DNA from: Dichotomicrobium thermohalophilum
GTDB taxonomy: Bacteria; Pseudomonadota; Alphaproteobacteria; Rhizobiales; Rhodomicrobiaceae
DNA: 64,000 bases
NCBI RefSeq assembly: GCF_003550175.1
Contig: NZ_QXDF01000001.1
Coordinates: forward strand, 1,884,501 to 1,948,500
Direction of reading: 5' to 3'
The notes beneath the pieces were generated by a model. That model saw nothing but the letters and a program-made list of their open reading frames with translations, was not told the origin of the DNA and searched no databases. This document shows, in pieces, positions 22,108 through 42,375 of this stretch. The position numbers and the translations under genes are program-made. Each line of letters starts with the position of its first letter. The first letter of the stretch is position 1.

Positions 22108-23400
22108 ATGGCTGAACATCCACATCGCACCGATTTGATCGCTCTTTTCGAAACCGCCGTCGCGCGCGCGCAACCTGGGCGGTGTTTGCCGGGTCTGTTT
22201 CCAGACTGGCCGGGCGGGCGGATCATTGTCATTGCCTGCGGAAAAGCCGGCGCGGCGATGGCACGCGTGGCGGAAGAGCACTATGCGGACGCGGTCGCGG
22301 AGGGCCGCTATCAGGCGCTGGCGGTGACACGGCACGGTTACGGCGTGCCGCTTGAGCACACGCGGCTGATCGAGGCGGGACATCCGGTGCCGGATGACGG
22401 CAGCCTGCGCGGCGCCGAGGCAGCTCTGGAAGCGGCCGGCGCAGCCGGCGCGGATGACCTTGTGCTGGTACTCCTTTCAGGCGGGGCATCTGCGCTGTGC
22501 GCTGCACCGGTTGCCGGGCTGACGCTGGACGACAAGCGCGCGCTGACACAGGCGCTGCTGCGTTCCGGCGCGACGATCAGCCAGATCAACTGCGTGCGCA
22601 AACATCTCTCGGGCTTCAAGGGCGGACGCCTCGCCGCTGCAGCGGCACCTTCGCGCGTCATGACGCTGGCCATCTCCGATGTGCCGGGGGATGCGCCAGA
22701 TGCGATCGGATCCGGCCCCACCGTGCCCGACCCGACCACGCTTGCTGATGCCCGCAAAGTGCTCGGCGAATTCGACATTACGCCCGGCTCGGCCGTCGCA
22801 GCGGCGCTCAACGACCCGGCAAACGAAACACCCAAGCCAGGCGATGACGCCTTTGCAAACGCCGAATACAGGCTTGCTGCCACCGCGGCGCAATCGCTGG
22901 ACGCGGCGGCCGAGGAGGCGCGGGCGCGCGGCTATCGCCCCGTCATCCTCGGCGACGCGCTTGAGGGCGAGGCGCGCGATCTGGCGAAAGCCCATGCGGC
23001 GCAGGCGCTTGAGCTGCAACGCGGAGGTGAGCGCATTGCGCTGCTTTCCGGCGGCGAGGCGACGGTCACCATTCGCGGCGACGGTCAAGGTGGCCCCAAT
23101 CAGGAATACGCACTGGCCCTGGCGATTGCCTTGGACGGCGCGCCGGGCATCCACGCACTCGCTGCGGACACCGATGGCTCGGATGGCGGCACGGGCGCAG
23201 CAGACGACCCGGCCGGCGCCATTACCGACTCCACAACGCTCGCGCGTGCCGCCGAGGCCAATCTCGATCCAGCCACATTCCTTCAAAATAACGACTCACA
23301 AGGGTTTTTTCGCGCGTTGGGCGACCTTCTCATCACGGGCCCGACGCAGACCAACGTTAACGATTTCCGCACGATTCTGGTCGAGCCGCCGGGGGAATAA
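22108..23400 (+). CDS. Glycerate 2-kinase, MOFRL family
   Basis: 430 aa. The N-terminal DUF4147 domain includes IVIACGKAGAAMA and VLLSGGASAL, and the C-terminal MOFRL domain includes LLSGGEATVTIRGDGQGGPNQEYALALAIAL and ALAADTDGSDG. Enzymes of this family (GckA/TtuD) phosphorylate D-glycerate with ATP to 2-phosphoglycerate, which then feeds to pyruvate kinase via enolase. pyk lies two genes downstream. The ATG at 22108 begins the conserved region; the frame is open upstream into the divergent gene. Confidence 0.9.
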   Translation: MAEHPHRTDLIALFETAVARAQPGRCLPGLFPDWPGGRIIVIACGKAGAAMARVAEEHYADAVAEGRYQALAVTRHGYGVPLEHTRLIEAGHPVPDDGSLRGAEAALEAAGAAGADDLVLVLLSGGASALCAAPVAGLTLDDKRALTQALLRSGATISQINCVRKHLSGFKGGRLAAAAAPSRVMTLAISDVPGDAPDAIGSGPTVPDPTTLADARKVLGEFDITPGSAVAAALNDPANETPKPGDDAFANAEYRLAATAAQSLDAAAEEARARGYRPVILGDALEGEARDLAKAHAAQALELQRGGERIALLSGGEATVTIRGDGQGGPNQEYALALAIALDGAPGIHALAADTDGSDGGTGAADDPAGAITDSTTLARAAEANLDPATFLQNNDSQGFFRALGDLLITGPTQTNVNDFRTILVEPPGE

Positions 23401-23452
23401 TGCAAGTCTGTCCCGGCCGTTCGGCCGTGCCCATGCGAACCGAGAGGAGTCC

Positions 23453-23893
23453 ATGACGGAGCGCGCATCCGATCGCACAAACTGTTGCAAGACCGTTTTC
23501 GCCGCCGCTTTGGCGCTGGGGCTATCGGCCTTCGCGCCATCGGCTCAAGCCGATCTCAAGCTTTGCAACATGACCAGCAGCCGTATCGGCGTGGCCATCG
23601 GCTACAAGGACACCGACGGCTGGGTGAGCGAAGGCTGGTGGAATGTCGCGGCGCAAGACTGTGAGATCCTGCTCAAGGGGGACCTGATCGCCCGTTTCTA
23701 TTATGTCCACGCTGTCGATTACGACCGCGGCGGGGAATGGAGCGGCGAAGCCTTCATGTGTACGGACGACAAGGCGTTCACCATCCGCGGCGTCCAGGAT
23801 TGCGAAGAGCGCGGTTACGCGCGCACCGGCTTCTTCGAGGTGGACACCAAGGAAGAGGCGGACTGGACCATCCGCATGACCGACGCGGAATAA
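23453..23893 (+). CDS. DUF1036 family secreted protein
   Basis: 146 aa. A signal peptide ends around PSAQAD. The mature domain begins LKLCNMTSSRIGVAIGYKD and contains GWWNVAAQDCEILL and FYYVHA, the DUF1036 hallmark with conserved Cys. Function is unknown. AGAGGAG precedes the ATG. It lies 12 nt before pyk, an adjacency conserved in many Rhizobiales-type genomes. Confidence 0.88.
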   Translation: MTERASDRTNCCKTVFAAALALGLSAFAPSAQADLKLCNMTSSRIGVAIGYKDTDGWVSEGWWNVAAQDCEILLKGDLIARFYYVHAVDYDRGGEWSGEAFMCTDDKAFTIRGVQDCEERGYARTGFFEVDTKEEADWTIRMTDAE

Positions 23894-23905: not shown

Positions 23906-25339
23906 ATGGCAGCGCGGCGGGTCAAGATCGTGGCAACGCTCGGGCCCGCATCCTTCAGCCCGGAAACCATCGGCCGGCTGATCGCCGCCGGCACCGACAC
24001 CTTCCGCATCAATATGAGCCACACGTCGCATGACGCGGCGACCGCGGCCGTGCAAGCCATCCGGGCAGCAGAGGCGCGCGCCGAGAGGCCCATCGGCATC
24101 CTGGTCGACCTGCAGGGGCCGAAGCTGCGCATTGGCGACTTCGCCGACGGGGCTGTGGATGTTGAGCACGGCGCCACGTTCCGCTTCGATAAATCCCGGG
24201 CGCCGGGGACCGCGGAGCGCGTCCACCTACCCCATCCCGAGATCTTTACCAGCGTCGCGCCGGGCGACCGGCTCCTGCTGGATGACGGCAAGCTACGCCT
24301 CGACGTCACCCAGATCAGCGCCGACGCGATCACGGCGCAGGTGGTCATCGGTGGTTCGCTGTCCGGGCGCAAGGGCATCAGCCTGCCCGACACGGAACTT
24401 CCCGTCGGGGCCCTCACAGCAAAGGACCGCGCCGATCTCGATTTCATGCTGGAGCAGGACGTGGACTGGCTGGCGCTCTCCTTCGTTCAGCGCGAGGACG
24501 ACATCGCCGAGGCCGCCAAGCTCGCCCGGGGCCGCGCTGCCATCATGGCCAAGATCGAGAAGCCGGCTGCCGTGCACCGTATCGACCGAATCCTGGAGCG
24601 CGCCGACGCGCTCATGGTCGCGCGCGGCGATCTGGGCGTGGAGATGCCGCTGCAGCAGGTGCCGGGTCTTCAGAAATCCCTCACCCGCGCGGCGCGCCGG
24701 GCCGGCAAGCCGATCGTCATCGCCACCCAGATGCTGGAGTCCATGATCGATGCGCCCGCGCCCACCCGCGCCGAGGTTTCCGACGTCGCGACCGCCGTCT
24801 TCGAGGGTGCCGATGCGGTGATGCTCTCGGCAGAGTCGGCTGTCGGCAAGTACCCGGTCGAGGCGGTGGAGGCCATGGCCGATATCGCCGCAGAGGTGGA
24901 GCGCGACCCGCTTTACGACAGCATCATCCATGCCCCTGAGCTTGGCCCCGACGAGAACGCTCCGGGTGCGATCAGCGCGGCCGCCTGCTCCATCGCCAAG
25001 TCGCTGAACCTCGCGCTCATCATTTGCTACACTGCCACCGGCGCGACCGCACTGCGCGCCGTCCGGCACCGACCGTCCACCCCGGTGCTCGCGCTTACAC
25101 CCGTACCCGAAACCGCGCGGCGGCTTGCGCTCGCCTGGGGGCTGCGATGCGTGCTCACGGATGATCCGAGCGATCTCGACGACATGGTCGAACGTGCCTG
25201 CGGCATTGCCCGTGAGTGGGGCTTCGCGGAACCGGGCCAGCGGGTAATTATCGCCGCGGGCGTTCCGCTGGGGACACCTGGCGCGACCAACATGCTGCGG
25301 GTCGCGTTTATCGAGCCAGCCTCGCGCAGCCGGCCCTGA
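23906..25339 (+). CDS. pyk: Pyruvate kinase
   Basis: 477 aa. Makes pyruvate and ATP from phosphoenolpyruvate. ATLGPAS and FRINMSHTSHD open the barrel, DLQGPKLRIG follows, and the active-site helix is IMAKIEKPAAV. MVARGDLGVEMPLQQVPGLQK and IVIATQMLESMIDAPAPTRAEVSDVATAVFEG are diagnostic (quoted in parts). The C-terminal regulatory domain is complete. The stop lies 6 nt from the ancestral end of the convergent PAN-domain gene. Confidence 0.96.
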   Translation: MAARRVKIVATLGPASFSPETIGRLIAAGTDTFRINMSHTSHDAATAAVQAIRAAEARAERPIGILVDLQGPKLRIGDFADGAVDVEHGATFRFDKSRAPGTAERVHLPHPEIFTSVAPGDRLLLDDGKLRLDVTQISADAITAQVVIGGSLSGRKGISLPDTELPVGALTAKDRADLDFMLEQDVDWLALSFVQREDDIAEAAKLARGRAAIMAKIEKPAAVHRIDRILERADALMVARGDLGVEMPLQQVPGLQKSLTRAARRAGKPIVIATQMLESMIDAPAPTRAEVSDVATAVFEGADAVMLSAESAVGKYPVEAVEAMADIAAEVERDPLYDSIIHAPELGPDENAPGAISAAACSIAKSLNLALIICYTATGATALRAVRHRPSTPVLALTPVPETARRLALAWGLRCVLTDDPSDLDDMVERACGIAREWGFAEPGQRVIIAAGVPLGTPGATNMLRVAFIEPASRSRP

Positions 25340-25345
25340 GCGCGG

Positions 25346-25459
25346 TCACTTCACGCCGGAGACGCAGCAATCATCGGAAACCGGCTGCGGCACCGAATGC
25401 TTCAGCCAGCACCGCGCGTCAGGCCCCTGAATGCCCGGTTTGACATACGTATAGGCCGC
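25346..25459 (-). pseudogene. In-frame continuation of a PAN domain beyond a UGA codon
   Basis: Directly after the stop of the secreted protein gene (25460-25462) the same frame stays open for 37 codons: [28 protein letters not shown], then a second TGA at 25346. These are the conserved second half of a PAN/Apple domain. The UGA stands where the family has a Cys (usually CxAYTYV), so a single TGC to TGA change would explain it. The tail ends 6 nt from the pyk stop, as a normal convergent gene would. Confidence 0.75.
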
Positions 25460-26029
25460 TCAGCGGCGCTCCTGTTCGCATTGCCGTGCGCACAAGCCCG
25501 GCTGATCACTTGCCAACGTGAAGTTGCGGTAGTCCGAGCCCGGGCGGTCAATGCCCGGTTCCCAGCTGACGCTGTTGTCCTGCCCGCCGCCGGTCCGGCC
25601 CTTTGTGCTCACCGTTACAAATTCACGCTCGGTCTCCCAGTTGGGACGGAAAATCTTAGGTATCGTGACGGCGATGCCAATCTCGTAGCGCTCACCCCGC
25701 CGGAGGTGGCCCTTCGGGACCCTGTGCGTGAAGGGAAGCATGTTCGAGGAATAGCCACGGCTTGCGCCGCGATCGTTTTCCCGGCTGTATATGACCTGCT
25801 TCGTATCGGTATCGATGAAGTAAATCTCGATAACCTTCCAATTCGGATTGCAGTTGCGCCCGGTCGGCTCAAACTTGATCGTCGGCGTCAACGAAATGGT
25901 CGATCCACCCGACGGGCTCACGATTTTCGGCGGACAGGTCGGCTCGGCCGCCGAGGCCGGCAGCATCGAGGCGAGCGCGAGGGCCACTCCGCTGATCGCT
26001 GAGACAGTGAGGTTTCTCCCTTTGCGCAT
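25460..26029 (-). CDS. Secreted protein with C-terminal PAN domain, cut by an in-frame UGA
   Basis: 189 aa up to the UGA. A signal peptide (MRKGRNLTVSAISGVALALA to ASAAE) leads to an Ig-like or beta-rich region (IVSPSGGSTISLTPTIKF, EIYFIDTDTKQVIYS). The last part, WEPGIDRPGSDYRNFTLASD, then LCARQCEQERR, is the first half of a PAN domain with two of its Cys. Without the remainder the disulfides cannot form, so the product is probably truncated. The ATG at 26029 is preferred over one at 26104 because the signal peptide begins there. Confidence 0.7.
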   Translation of the reverse strand: MRKGRNLTVSAISGVALALASMLPASAAEPTCPPKIVSPSGGSTISLTPTIKFEPTGRNCNPNWKVIEIYFIDTDTKQVIYSRENDRGASRGYSSNMLPFTHRVPKGHLRRGERYEIGIAVTIPKIFRPNWETEREFVTVSTKGRTGGGQDNSVSWEPGIDRPGSDYRNFTLASDQPGLCARQCEQERR

Positions 26030-26571: not shown

Positions 26572-28617
26572 ATGGCGGATACCGGCGCGCATGACACCCA
26601 CGGCCCCCGTTGCGTGGCTCTGGTCGGTCCGTACGCCAGCGGCAAGACGACGCTGCTGGAAGCCCTGATGGCGCGCACCGGCGCGATCAGCCGACAGGGC
26701 AGCATCGGCGAAGGCAACACACTCGGCGATCACGATCCCTCCGCTCGCGCGCATCAGATGAGCGTGGAAATGAATGTCGGGCAGACCGAGTTTATCGGCG
26801 ACCAGTTCACATTCCTGGACTGTCCCGGCTCGGTCGAGTTCCATTATGAGAGCGTGCCGGCCATCGCCGCCTGCGATGCCGCTGTCGTCGTCTGCGAGGC
26901 CGATCCGCGCAAGGTGCCGGCGCTGCAACTGACTTTGCGTGATCTGGAGGAACAGGGCATCCCGCACTTCCTGTTCCTCAACAAGATCGACAAGGCGGAC
27001 ATGCGCATCCGGGACATCCTGCCGATGCTGCAGCCGGCCAGTCAGCGCCCGCTGGTGCTGCGCCACATTCCGATCTGGGAGAAAGGCATCGTCACAGGCT
27101 TTATCGACCTGGCGCTGGAGCGCGCCTTCGTTTACCGCGAGCACGCCCCGAGCGAGGTGATCGAGATGCCCTCGGAGGCCGGCGACCGCGAGGCCGAAGC
27201 GCGCTTTTCGATGCTCGAACAGCTCGCCGATTACGACGATCAGCTCATGGAACAGCTGCTGGAGGATATAGAGCCGCCGCGCGACCAGGTCTTCGACGAT
27301 CTCGCGAAGGAGCTGCGCGAAGGGGCGATCTGCCCGGTGCTCATCGGCTCGGCGGAGCGCGGCAACGGCATCTTCCGGCTGCTGAAGGCGCTACGGCACG
27401 AGGTCCCGCAGGTGGATCAGGCCGCCGAGCGGCTTGGCGTGGCGGCCTGGCCGAGCGCGCTCGGGATCGTGAAAACGGTGCATACCCCCCACGGCGGCAA
27501 GCTCTCCGTGACGCGCGTGCTGCGCGGCGAGGTGGCCGAGGGCTCGACCGTCTATGCGCCCGAAGGCGAGGACCGGTGCGCCGGCGTCTTGACCATGAAA
27601 GGCTCTCAGGCCTCGAAGCGTGGAGCCGCCGGTCTTGGCGAGACGGTCGCGCTCGCACGCCTCGATAACGCCAAGACCGGCGATATGGCCTCCACCGCGA
27701 AGGACGAGCCGCGCAAGCATTTCGTCGCACTGGGCACCGCGCCGGTCTACGGCGTCGCCATCAACGCCTCTGAGCGCAAGGACGAGGTCCGGCTCACCAC
27801 CGCGCTCGCCAAGATCTGCGACGAAGACCCCTCACTCGTCTTCATCAATAACACCGAAACAGGCGGCATGGAGCTTTGGGGCTTCGGCGAGATGCATCTG
27901 CGCCTGGCGCTGGAGCGGCTGGAGAGCAAATACGGCATCCGCGCCGAAACCCGGCCGCGCAAGATCCCCTACAAGGAGAGCATCAAGAAGAGCACCGAGG
28001 TGCGTGGCCGCCACAAGAAGCAAAGCGGCGGCCACGGCCAATACGGTGACGTCGTGCTGGAGATCAAGCCGCTTCCGCGCGGCAGTGGCTTCGAATTTTC
28101 CGAAAAGATCACCGGAGGGGCGGTGCCAAAGCAATACATCCCCGCCGTTGAAGCCGGTATCCGGGACTTCCTCGGCGAAGGCCCGCTCGGCTTTCCGGTC
28201 GTGGACATCGCCGTGACGCTCAAGGACGGCTCCTATCACAGCGTGGATTCATCGGAACAGGCGTTCCGCGCGGCGGGCCGCATGGCGATGGCCGAAGGAA
28301 TGCCGAAGTGCGAGCCGGTCCTGTTGGAGCCCTTCAGCCATGTCGAAATCGCCGCCCCCAGCGAAGCGACACCGAAGATCAACCAGATCATCTCGGCGCG
28401 GCGTGGCCATATTCAGGGCTTCGACACGCGGCAGGGCTGGCCTGGCTGGGACGTGGTCTGGGGCGAGATGCCCGAGGCGGAAACGCGCGACCTGATCCTG
28501 GAGCTGCGCTCGGCGACCGCGGGCGTCGGCACCTTCACGGCGCGCTTCGATCACATGCAGGAGCTGAACGGCAAGCTGGCCGAAAAGATCATCGCAGGCG
28601 AATCAGCAGCCGCCTGA
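26572..28617 (+). CDS. Elongation factor G-like GTPase (EF-G paralogue)
   Basis: 681 aa. The P-loop is GPYASGKTTL rather than the canonical EF-G AHIDAGKTT, the G3 motif is DCPGSVEF, and G4 is NKIDKAD. Domains II to V follow, with RGRHKKQSGGHGQYGDV of domain IV and the C-terminal FTARFDHMQEL. This is the alphaproteobacterial EF-G-like group, distinct from the fusA gene of the str operon; its role in translation is not settled. CGGAGGAAG precedes the ATG. Confidence 0.88.
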   Translation: MADTGAHDTHGPRCVALVGPYASGKTTLLEALMARTGAISRQGSIGEGNTLGDHDPSARAHQMSVEMNVGQTEFIGDQFTFLDCPGSVEFHYESVPAIAACDAAVVVCEADPRKVPALQLTLRDLEEQGIPHFLFLNKIDKADMRIRDILPMLQPASQRPLVLRHIPIWEKGIVTGFIDLALERAFVYREHAPSEVIEMPSEAGDREAEARFSMLEQLADYDDQLMEQLLEDIEPPRDQVFDDLAKELREGAICPVLIGSAERGNGIFRLLKALRHEVPQVDQAAERLGVAAWPSALGIVKTVHTPHGGKLSVTRVLRGEVAEGSTVYAPEGEDRCAGVLTMKGSQASKRGAAGLGETVALARLDNAKTGDMASTAKDEPRKHFVALGTAPVYGVAINASERKDEVRLTTALAKICDEDPSLVFINNTETGGMELWGFGEMHLRLALERLESKYGIRAETRPRKIPYKESIKKSTEVRGRHKKQSGGHGQYGDVVLEIKPLPRGSGFEFSEKITGGAVPKQYIPAVEAGIRDFLGEGPLGFPVVDIAVTLKDGSYHSVDSSEQAFRAAGRMAMAEGMPKCEPVLLEPFSHVEIAAPSEATPKINQIISARRGHIQGFDTRQGWPGWDVVWGEMPEAETRDLILELRSATAGVGTFTARFDHMQELNGKLAEKIIAGESAAA

Positions 28618-39311: not shown

Positions 39312-39806
39312 TCAGAATGGCCCGTTCAGCTGGACGATCTGGTAGTTCACCACACCGGCGAACGCGACCCAGAGCAGATACGGTACGATCAGCGCGCCCG
39401 CGAGCTTCGAAAACCGGCCGAGGTAGACAAGCAACGCGAGCACCGACAACCATAGGAAGACCACCTCGATCAGCGCCCAGTCCGGCCGCTGCAGCCGGAA
39501 AAACAGCACCGTCCAGAGCACGTTCAGCGTGCCGTTCAGCGCGAACAGGCCGATGATCCATTCCCGACTCACGCCATCAGCCGCGCGCCACGCCGTCACG
39601 CCCGCCAGCGCGGCAAGCGCGAAGATGATCGTCCACGCGGGGCCGAAGGCCCAGTCAGGCGGCTGGAAGGAAGGCTTCTCAAGGCTCTGATACCACGGCC
39701 CGATGTCGGTCATTGTACTGCCGAGCACAGCCACGACCACGGCCGCCGCCCCCGCCGCCAGCACCTGCGTCCACAGCGCGGACATCCGCGTCGCACGATC
39801 CGTCAT
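39312..39806 (-). CDS. tspO: TspO/MBR family tryptophan-rich sensory protein
   Basis: 164 aa, five membrane helices. The signature YQSLEKPSFQPPDWAFGPAW and the helix-4 WTVLFF and W-rich stretch match TspO. In Rhodobacter it is an outer-membrane regulator that links porphyrin intermediates to photosynthesis gene expression. The ATG overlaps the bchP stop by 3 nt, so it is coupled to pigment genes. Confidence 0.93.
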   Translation of the reverse strand: MTDRATRMSALWTQVLAAGAAAVVVAVLGSTMTDIGPWYQSLEKPSFQPPDWAFGPAWTIIFALAALAGVTAWRAADGVSREWIIGLFALNGTLNVLWTVLFFRLQRPDWALIEVVFLWLSVLALLVYLGRFSKLAGALIVPYLLWVAFAGVVNYQIVQLNGPF

Positions 39807-40993
39807 GGATTCACGATCCGCAACAGGTGCGCCATGTCCTTGAAGAAGATGCGCACATGCGCAATCGGGTTCGCCCGCACCAGCTTCTTGTTCATGTAGG
39901 CCTGCCAGGTCAGGCGCTGCACGTCGCGATCCGCGCAGATGTTGACGAAGCGCTCCCGCCGTCCGTCATCGCGGTACCAGAAGTGCTGCATGATGCCGAG
40001 AATCCGAAACACCATGCCGTGCTCCTTCATGAAGCGTTTGCGCGCCTGGCGCAGGACCCTGGCATCGCCCGTGCGCACGAATACGCCGGCCGTCTCCGCC
40101 GCGCGGCGGCCGCAGGTCATGGCGTAGAAAATGCCCTCCCCTGACGCGGGTGCGACCACGCCCGCCGCATCGCCGACCAGCAACACGTCCTGGCCATTAT
40201 CCCACCGTTTCAGGGGCTGGAGCGGGATTGGCGCGCCTTCGCAGCGGATCGTTTCGACGCCTTCCAGCCCCGACTTCTGGCGCAGCGAAGCCGTGGCCCC
40301 GCGCAAGGAAAAGCCCTTCTGCGCGCTGCCCACGCCGACGCTTGTGCATTTGCCATGGGGGAAAATCCAGCCGTAGAAGTCCGGCGAAACCTCACCCTGG
40401 TAATAGACGTCGCAGCGGCTGCCATCGAAGTTCTCGCCGTTCGCGGGCGAGCGGACGATCTCGTGATAGGCAAAGACACACTTATTGTTTTCGCCGCCCG
40501 TAACTTCCTGCTTGGCGACCGCCGAGCGCGCACCGTCCGCGCCGATGACCAGCCGGGCGCGCACCGTCTCCCGCGCGTCGTTCAGCGCCCCCTTTGGCGC
40601 GAAATGCACCGTGGCGTAGCCGTCGCCCTCCCGCGTGATCTGCTTGAAGCTGCCAGTAAAGCGCGTGGCACCGTTGCGCGCGGCGCGGTCGCGCAGCCAC
40701 TCGTCGAACTCCTCGCGGTCAACCATGCCGACGAAGCCGCCGATGTCCATGTCCACCGCCTTCTTTGACGGCGCCACCATGCGCGCGGTCGTCGCACGCG
40801 CGACCATCAGATGCTCGGGAATGGCGAAATCGCGCAGCAGCTTGGGCGGGATCGCCCCGCCACACGGTTTGATGCGCCCGCCCCGGTCGATCAGAGCCAC
40901 GCTGTACCCATCACGGGCCAGATCATTGGCCGCCGTCGCGCCCGCCGGACCGCCACCAACCACAACAACGTCGAAAGTCTGACACTCTGACAT
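39803..40993 (-). CDS. bchP: Geranylgeranyl-bacteriochlorophyll reductase
   Basis: 396 aa flavoprotein. FDVVVVGGGPAGATAANDLAR is the FAD-binding fold (quoted to 20), KPCGGAIPPKLL follows, and LVGDAAGVVAPASGEGI is the second FAD motif. It reduces the geranylgeranyl tail of bacteriochlorophyll to phytyl. The ATG at 40993 has AAGG at good spacing; a GTG three codons upstream overlaps the previous gene's stop. It lies between the PucC-like gene and tspO. Confidence 0.95.
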   Translation of the reverse strand: MSECQTFDVVVVGGGPAGATAANDLARDGYSVALIDRGGRIKPCGGAIPPKLLRDFAIPEHLMVARATTARMVAPSKKAVDMDIGGFVGMVDREEFDEWLRDRAARNGATRFTGSFKQITREGDGYATVHFAPKGALNDARETVRARLVIGADGARSAVAKQEVTGGENNKCVFAYHEIVRSPANGENFDGSRCDVYYQGEVSPDFYGWIFPHGKCTSVGVGSAQKGFSLRGATASLRQKSGLEGVETIRCEGAPIPLQPLKRWDNGQDVLLVGDAAGVVAPASGEGIFYAMTCGRRAAETAGVFVRTGDARVLRQARKRFMKEHGMVFRILGIMQHFWYRDDGRRERFVNICADRDVQRLTWQAYMNKKLVRANPIAHVRIFFKDMAHLLRIVNP

Positions 40994-40998
40994 GGGTT

Positions 40999-42375
40999 TC
41001 ACCTTCCGCTTGCGTCTGCGAGGTAGCCTTCCCCTGCGGCGAAGGCATGCAGGGGCGGGCCGGAGGGTTCGCTGTCGCGGTTGCTCCGGGCCGCCCAGGC
41101 GACCCGCAGGGAGAGTACCGCGGCGATCAGGAAGAGGACGCCTTCAACCGTGAAGACCGTGGCGTACGCCGTGATGGAGGTGTCGAAGATGCTGCGCGCC
41201 AGATCGACAGCGGCCGTGCCAAGGAAGCCGCCCAGGCCGAAGGCGATCGCCTGCGCCGCGCCCCACAGGCCCATGCGCACGCCCTCGCGCTTTTCGCGCC
41301 CGGAACTGGCATGCGCCATCATCGCGCTGATCGCCGCAACGGCGAAGATGCCGTTGGCCAGGCCAAGCGCGAAGACGTTGCTCCACAGCGGCCAAGACGC
41401 GCCGACGAACGCGCCGACCGACAGGCCGATGAGCGCCGCGGCCGACGCGATGCAGCCGGCAACCGTCCACTGGCGCATGCTGGCAGCATCGCGGTGGCCA
41501 ATGAGCGTCGCGCCCACGCCGATGAGCAGCATCCCTACGAGCACGCCCGCGTGCTGGACGCCCGAAAGCTGGGTCGATTGCCCCGGCGTGAAGTCGAAGA
41601 CGAGGCCCGCGAACGGTTCCAGGATCAGGTCCTGCGCGCTGTAAGCCAGCATGGATACGAAGACGAAGACGGTGAAGCGCCGCGCGGTCGGTTCGCCCCA
41701 GACCTCCTTGAGGGCCTGCATGAAGGGCGGTTTCGATTCGGATTGTCCGGTTTCGGTTGGCTCTGACGCGGACGGTGCCCGCTCCACGCCCCAGACAGCG
41801 AGGATGGTGAGGAAGAAAGCCGTCGCGCACACGCCCGCCGCCACGGCGACCAGGCGCTCATGCGAATAGGGATCGAGGAAGCTGCCGGCGATCCCCGCCG
41901 TTACGACAAAACCGGCGATCATCATGATCCAGACCAGCGAGGCGGCCGCCGGCCGACGACCCGACGCGGTTCGCGTCGCCAGCAGGACGAGCAGCGAAGT
42001 ACCGGCCGCGCCGACGCCCACGCCGATCGCGGTGAAAGCGATGACGGAACAGACAATCCCGAGCGTCGGCGAGACAGCCATCAGCGCGGTCGATGCAGCG
42101 GCCCCCAATCCTCCGAGGGCGAGAATGGCCATCCCGCCAATGATCCAGGGCGTACGCCGCCCGCCAGCATCCGAACCGTAGCCCCAGCGCGGGCGCAGCA
42201 GCTGAATGGCGTAATGCAACGCGACGAGGGCGCCGGGCAGCATGGCCGCGAACTGAAGCTCCACCACCATGACGCGGTTGAGCGTTGATGTCGTCAGCAC
42301 CACGATCGCTCCGAGCGCGGTCTGCACGAGACCCAGCCGAACGATCTCGAACCAACTCAGCGGTTTCGCGGTCAT
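40999..42375 (-). CDS. PucC-family transporter (Orf428/Bch2 type)
   Basis: 458 aa with about 12 membrane helices, MFS fold of the PucC/LhaA family. FEIVRLGLVQTALGAIVVLTTSTLNRVMVVEL opens it as in bch2/orf428 of Rhodobacter (quoted in part). These proteins assist light-harvesting complex assembly, perhaps by pigment delivery. The ATG at 42375 overlaps the bchG stop by 4 nt. lhaA at 54876 is its paralogue. Confidence 0.9.
   Translation of the reverse strand: MTAKPLSWFEIVRLGLVQTALGAIVVLTTSTLNRVMVVELQFAAMLPGALVALHYAIQLLRPRWGYGSDAGGRRTPWIIGGMAILALGGLGAAASTALMAVSPTLGIVCSVIAFTAIGVGVGAAGTSLLVLLATRTASGRRPAAASLVWIMMIAGFVVTAGIAGSFLDPYSHERLVAVAAGVCATAFFLTILAVWGVERAPSASEPTETGQSESKPPFMQALKEVWGEPTARRFTVFVFVSMLAYSAQDLILEPFAGLVFDFTPGQSTQLSGVQHAGVLVGMLLIGVGATLIGHRDAASMRQWTVAGCIASAAALIGLSVGAFVGASWPLWSNVFALGLANGIFAVAAISAMMAHASSGREKREGVRMGLWGAAQAIAFGLGGFLGTAAVDLARSIFDTSITAYATVFTVEGVLFLIAAVLSLRVAWAARSNRDSEPSGPPLHAFAAGEGYLADASGR

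Follow-up and report, generated by a model that had tools for sequence, protein, structure and literature searches.

The window, as the whole 64,000-nucleotide stretch of Dichotomicrobium thermohalophilum DNA analysed here is called, carries on its minus strand a gene for a PAN-domain protein that is interrupted by an in-frame TGA (Table 1). The preliminary description had placed the stop of this frame at 25460-25462, followed by 37 further open codons that end 6 nt from the pyk stop. Translation of 26029..25346 on the minus strand confirmed this layout, including the coordinates and peptides. The final stop lies at 25348..25346, with 6 nt between it and the pyk stop at 25337-25339, and the 37 residues after the TGA end in CCVSGVK. 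The protein begins MRKGRNLTVSAISGVALALASMLPASAAEP, which resembles a signal peptide by eye; the segment listed in Table 1 has a charged start, followed by a hydrophobic stretch and an A-x-A motif. With this putative signal peptide, the gene product is predicted to be secreted; its C-terminal domain is PAN_4 (PF14295).

Table 1. Coordinates of the interrupted gene, its parts and the adjacent genes in the window.
Feature	Position	Strand	Remarks
Interrupted PAN-domain gene, whole	25346..26029	-	189 codons, TGA, 37 codons and final stop
Putative signal peptide, residues 1-28 (MRKGRNLTVSAISGVALALASMLPASAA)	25946..26029	-	Judged by eye
Orphan N-terminal region, residues ~29-150	25580..25945	-	Unmatched among 385 genomes of the class
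PAN_4 domain, residues 160-210, interrupted by the TGA	25400..25552	-	PAN_4 profile match
In-frame TGA	25460..25462	-	Cys column in relatives
Coding tail after the TGA, 37 codons	25349..25459	-	Second half of PAN domain; conserved residues retained
pyk (pyruvate kinase), intact, convergent neighbour	23906..25339	+	Pfam PK and PK_C
Elongation-factor-G-like GTPase, 681 residues, divergent neighbour	26572..28617	+	Pfam EF-G domains

Directly before pyk lies a gene for a secreted DUF1036 protein (23453-23893, plus strand; Pfam PF06282, 153.7 bits), which sits within a longer listed ORF (22679-23893); the beginning of that ORF overlaps the frame of another gene. Elsewhere in the window, an FAD-dependent oxidoreductase (39803-41002, minus strand) matches Pfam FAD_binding_3 and Lycopene_cycl. 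From an impression of its sequence we take it to resemble geranylgeranyl reductases, a hint that the organism is perhaps phototrophic.

The PAN domain on both sides of the TGA

The open run of 37 codons was discarded as evidence for a coding tail, as such lengths are common in this window: the open runs that follow 40 large ORFs have a median of 40.5 codons. Additionally, 14% of the out-of-frame 37-codon slices of the window score at least as high as the tail in coding likeness. The tail is considered coding because of its homology, rather than the openness of its frame. The product terminated at the TGA scores 26.9 bits against PAN_4, covers profile positions 1-29 of 51 only, and falls below the Pfam gathering cut-off of 27 bits; with the TGA read through, the score rises to 57.1 bits over all 51 positions and lies above the cut-off. 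This gain bears out the proposal that the codons after the TGA encode the second half of a PAN/Apple domain. A genome-wide PAN_4 search matched a single locus, with one TGA inside.

A structure model was built on the read-through protein, with the TGA entered as Cys. The PAN domain of this model has a pLDDT of ~97, and the N-terminal region is mostly beta with low model confidence. Residues 150-227 match the Apple domains of prekallikrein and factor XI (Z ~11, rmsd 1.8-1.9 for 74-76 residues), and by this similarity to solved Apple domains the read-through model has a PAN/Apple fold. Foldseek alone returned nothing below an E of 0.001, its best match (0.009) being from the same Apple-domain family, and neither a solved structure nor an NCBIfam model was found by sequence match. 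The strands of the model that are lost through the TGA span residues 192-196, 205-210 and 217-226.

Relatives of the gene and the cysteine column

A close relative of the full-length query was found neither in genome contigs nor in plasmids. Searches of 60 relatives and of 397 genomes from the order gave no full-length relative either, and the matches there were confined to the PAN domain. The N-terminal region gave no match at 80 named pyk loci, within the flanks examined, and the full-length query likewise gave nothing at these loci. A separate observation concerns the pyk match of Falsirhodobacter deserti (L094 4001-5648), which takes up 1648 bases for 464 residues, ~250 beyond need; this pyk may be interrupted. 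Judged from the searches, the PAN gene appears to be an accessory gene of this lineage among the genomes covered. Since no orthologue was found, orthologue-level tests of constraint were ruled out, and domain relatives were substituted.

These domain relatives are PAN_4 secreted proteins of Alphaproteobacteria that share the domain, its cysteines and a CCVSGVK-type end with the window gene. The closest segment is 56-62% identical to it, depending on the alignment method. They differ in having Cys where the window gene has TGA, and none has its N-terminal region. The TGA aligns with a Cys in each of the 63 relative segments, several of which come from multi-domain proteins or overlapping loci and so are not independent. 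Moreover, the TGA column is an invariant Cys in a 29-row alignment, in which row 1 is the window protein with the TGA as Cys and is therefore uncounted at this column. The claim that relatives carry Cys at the site of the UGA thus holds. A stop at this column occurs in none of the PAN-domain relatives aligned, which stand in for orthologues. Other invariant columns of the 29-row alignment include C180, C184, C207, K210, S224 and G225.

The sequence after the TGA is undegraded. The codon score per codon is 0.16 before the TGA and 0.12 after it, GC3 is 0.77 and 0.76 respectively, and the tail is identical to the closest relative at 25 of 37 residues, compared with 17 of 33 for the residues preceding the TGA. 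No sign of decay or of a second lesion was seen in the gene on either side of the TGA. Therefore, the TGA is recent, erroneous or tolerated: the missing second lesion fits recency, and it fits readthrough or a sequence error equally well.

Decoding of UGA in the genome

Sec/Cys pairs usually show themselves by a UGA at a Cys column, and a selC*-type tRNA-Cys with a UCA anticodon occurs in some anaerobic bacteria (PMC7609411). Both points favour programmed recoding, in which the UGA would be read as selenocysteine, or as cysteine via a dedicated tRNA. The preliminary description had proposed a genome search for sel genes; this search yielded no above-cut-off match to selA or selB and no true tRNA-Sec. 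The selA hit in the genome reaches 22.8 bits, where the cut-off is 267.9. The nine selB profile matches are all under the 242-bit cut-off and are sized like other translation GTPases; the best of them (203 bits) covers positions 1-267 of a 435-codon frame, the size of which fits EF-Tu. Two marginal matches over the tRNA-Sec cut-off were both typed by ARAGORN as tRNA-Ser (TGA and CGA anticodons). A UCA anticodon is present in 0 of 45 typed tRNAs, a set that is incomplete in that no tRNA-Ile(GAT) or tRNA-Ala(TGC) was found, and the anticodon of tRNA-Cys is GCA. A genome scan for CTTCAAA, a bare anticodon-loop pattern that is too short to be telling, gave 146 matches versus 119 in the control.

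The RNA past the UGA can be folded into a hairpin of -13 kcal/mol, with a z of -0.09 to -0.56 relative to shuffles; it thus folds no better than shuffled sequence. Bacterial SECIS elements vary, so one may be present nonetheless. Selenocysteine was rejected on selA, selB, tRNA-Sec and this folding. It had been disfavoured earlier on the ground that no hairpin follows the UGA. The judgement stands, with a correction to its ground: a hairpin can be drawn, albeit one no better than shuffles (z -0.09). Programmed recoding in either form is considered very improbable. Even more remote is a site-specific decoding of UGA that would keep the disulfide cysteine without selenocysteine machinery, via an unrecognised tRNA or local context; if true, it would be a UGA-to-Cys event beyond known systems.

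A suppressor tRNA was also rejected, as no stop-codon reader is present among the 45 tRNAs found. A tRNA-Trp with a 4-bp anticodon stem has been reported to read UGA (PMC13092985). This candidate was rejected as well, since the stem of tRNA-Trp(CCA) is the canonical 5 bp. Among the tRNA matches, one tRNA-Lys(CTT) (L175, C1:1246459-1246633) scores 30.8 bits versus 74.8 bits for the other tRNA-Lys(CTT) copy, and is perhaps a degenerate or partial copy. Genome-wide reassignment or suppression of UGA is not supported: no tRNA reading UGA was found, RF2 is intact in the genome, and TGA is still in use as a stop, being the commonest one in the window, where 25 of the 40 large ORFs end in it.

Origin of the in-frame TGA

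Three readings had been offered in the preliminary description. A fresh nonsense mutation and a base-call error remain, and an unusual recoding is without support, the decoding machinery not having been found. An ordinary and recent single-base change that turned the codon of the invariant PAN cysteine into UGA is the probable explanation, and the gene is probably broken. The gene has a premature stop where homologues encode Cys (63 of 63 segments), as nonsense pseudogenes do. TGA is one base from the Cys codons, and 75 single-base changes could make a stop across the present frame, 7 of them at Cys codons, so that a nonsense change on Cys is no rare coincidence. After such a change, ribosomes would terminate at the UGA and release a 189-residue precursor that would lack the last three PAN strands and three more cysteines. 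The truncated PAN domain would most likely be unable to fold, leaving the gene probably non-functional. In the PAN domain of HGF, function is impaired by mutated core cysteines (PMC9249922). Most likely, the change would break the only PAN_4 gene of the genome. The TGA, its place in the domain, the invariant Cys of the relatives and the undegraded tail are shown; a correct base call, a recent change and a truncated product without function are what we infer from them.

A base-call or consensus error, with the gene of the organism intact and the TGA in the assembly only, is possible and somewhat unlikely. Two points are in favour of such an error: apart from the TGA the gene carries no damage on either side, and the genome has no other PAN_4 gene. 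The genome is a 7-contig draft in which 16S rRNA, tRNA-Ile(GAT) and tRNA-Ala(TGC) were not found, as suits a metagenome or short-read assembly. No match to 16S rRNA was found in the genome by a search that also missed some control genomes and is weak alone; with both tRNAs also lacking among the 45 matches, the assembly probably lacks some sequence. The rRNA operon may thus be absent from it despite an estimated completeness of 99.84%. That completeness, together with a contamination of 0.05%, argues against an error at the TGA, as do the neighbouring genes, in which nothing indicated poor sequence quality, and the general rarity of single substitutions in a polished consensus.

Low-level readthrough, in which near-cognate tRNAs would read a leaky UGA, some full-length protein would be made and the tail would be weakly selected, is improbable. 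UGA is leaky, and many in-frame stops of bacterial genes bear signs of continued constraint (PMC7918605), which together with the well-conserved tail favours this reading. However, UGA readthrough mostly inserts Trp (PMC7918605), which would not substitute for a disulfide cysteine; the 5-bp stem of tRNA-Trp noted above also counts against it, and the conservation of one sequence cannot separate constraint from recency. Some readthrough is conceivable at any UGA (PMC7918605), and nothing at this gene specifically indicates it.

The probable recent nonsense change would place the gene beside the nonsense pseudogenes of a published survey (PMC7918605), with which it shares a single premature stop, an otherwise intact frame and a conserved tail. 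The survey differs in that stops shared among orthologues and constraint on tails were measurable there, whereas the window gene is known from one sequence. With selenoproteins that form Sec/Cys pairs, the gene has in common a UGA at a column that homologues fill with Cys; in contrast to them, neither Sec machinery nor a SECIS-like hairpin with support was found here. The PAN gene, itself of little importance, cleanly illustrates that a single base change can imitate a recoding signal when it strikes an invariant cysteine. As a caution, the term recoding should be applied to a UGA at a Cys column only once the decoding machinery has been sought.
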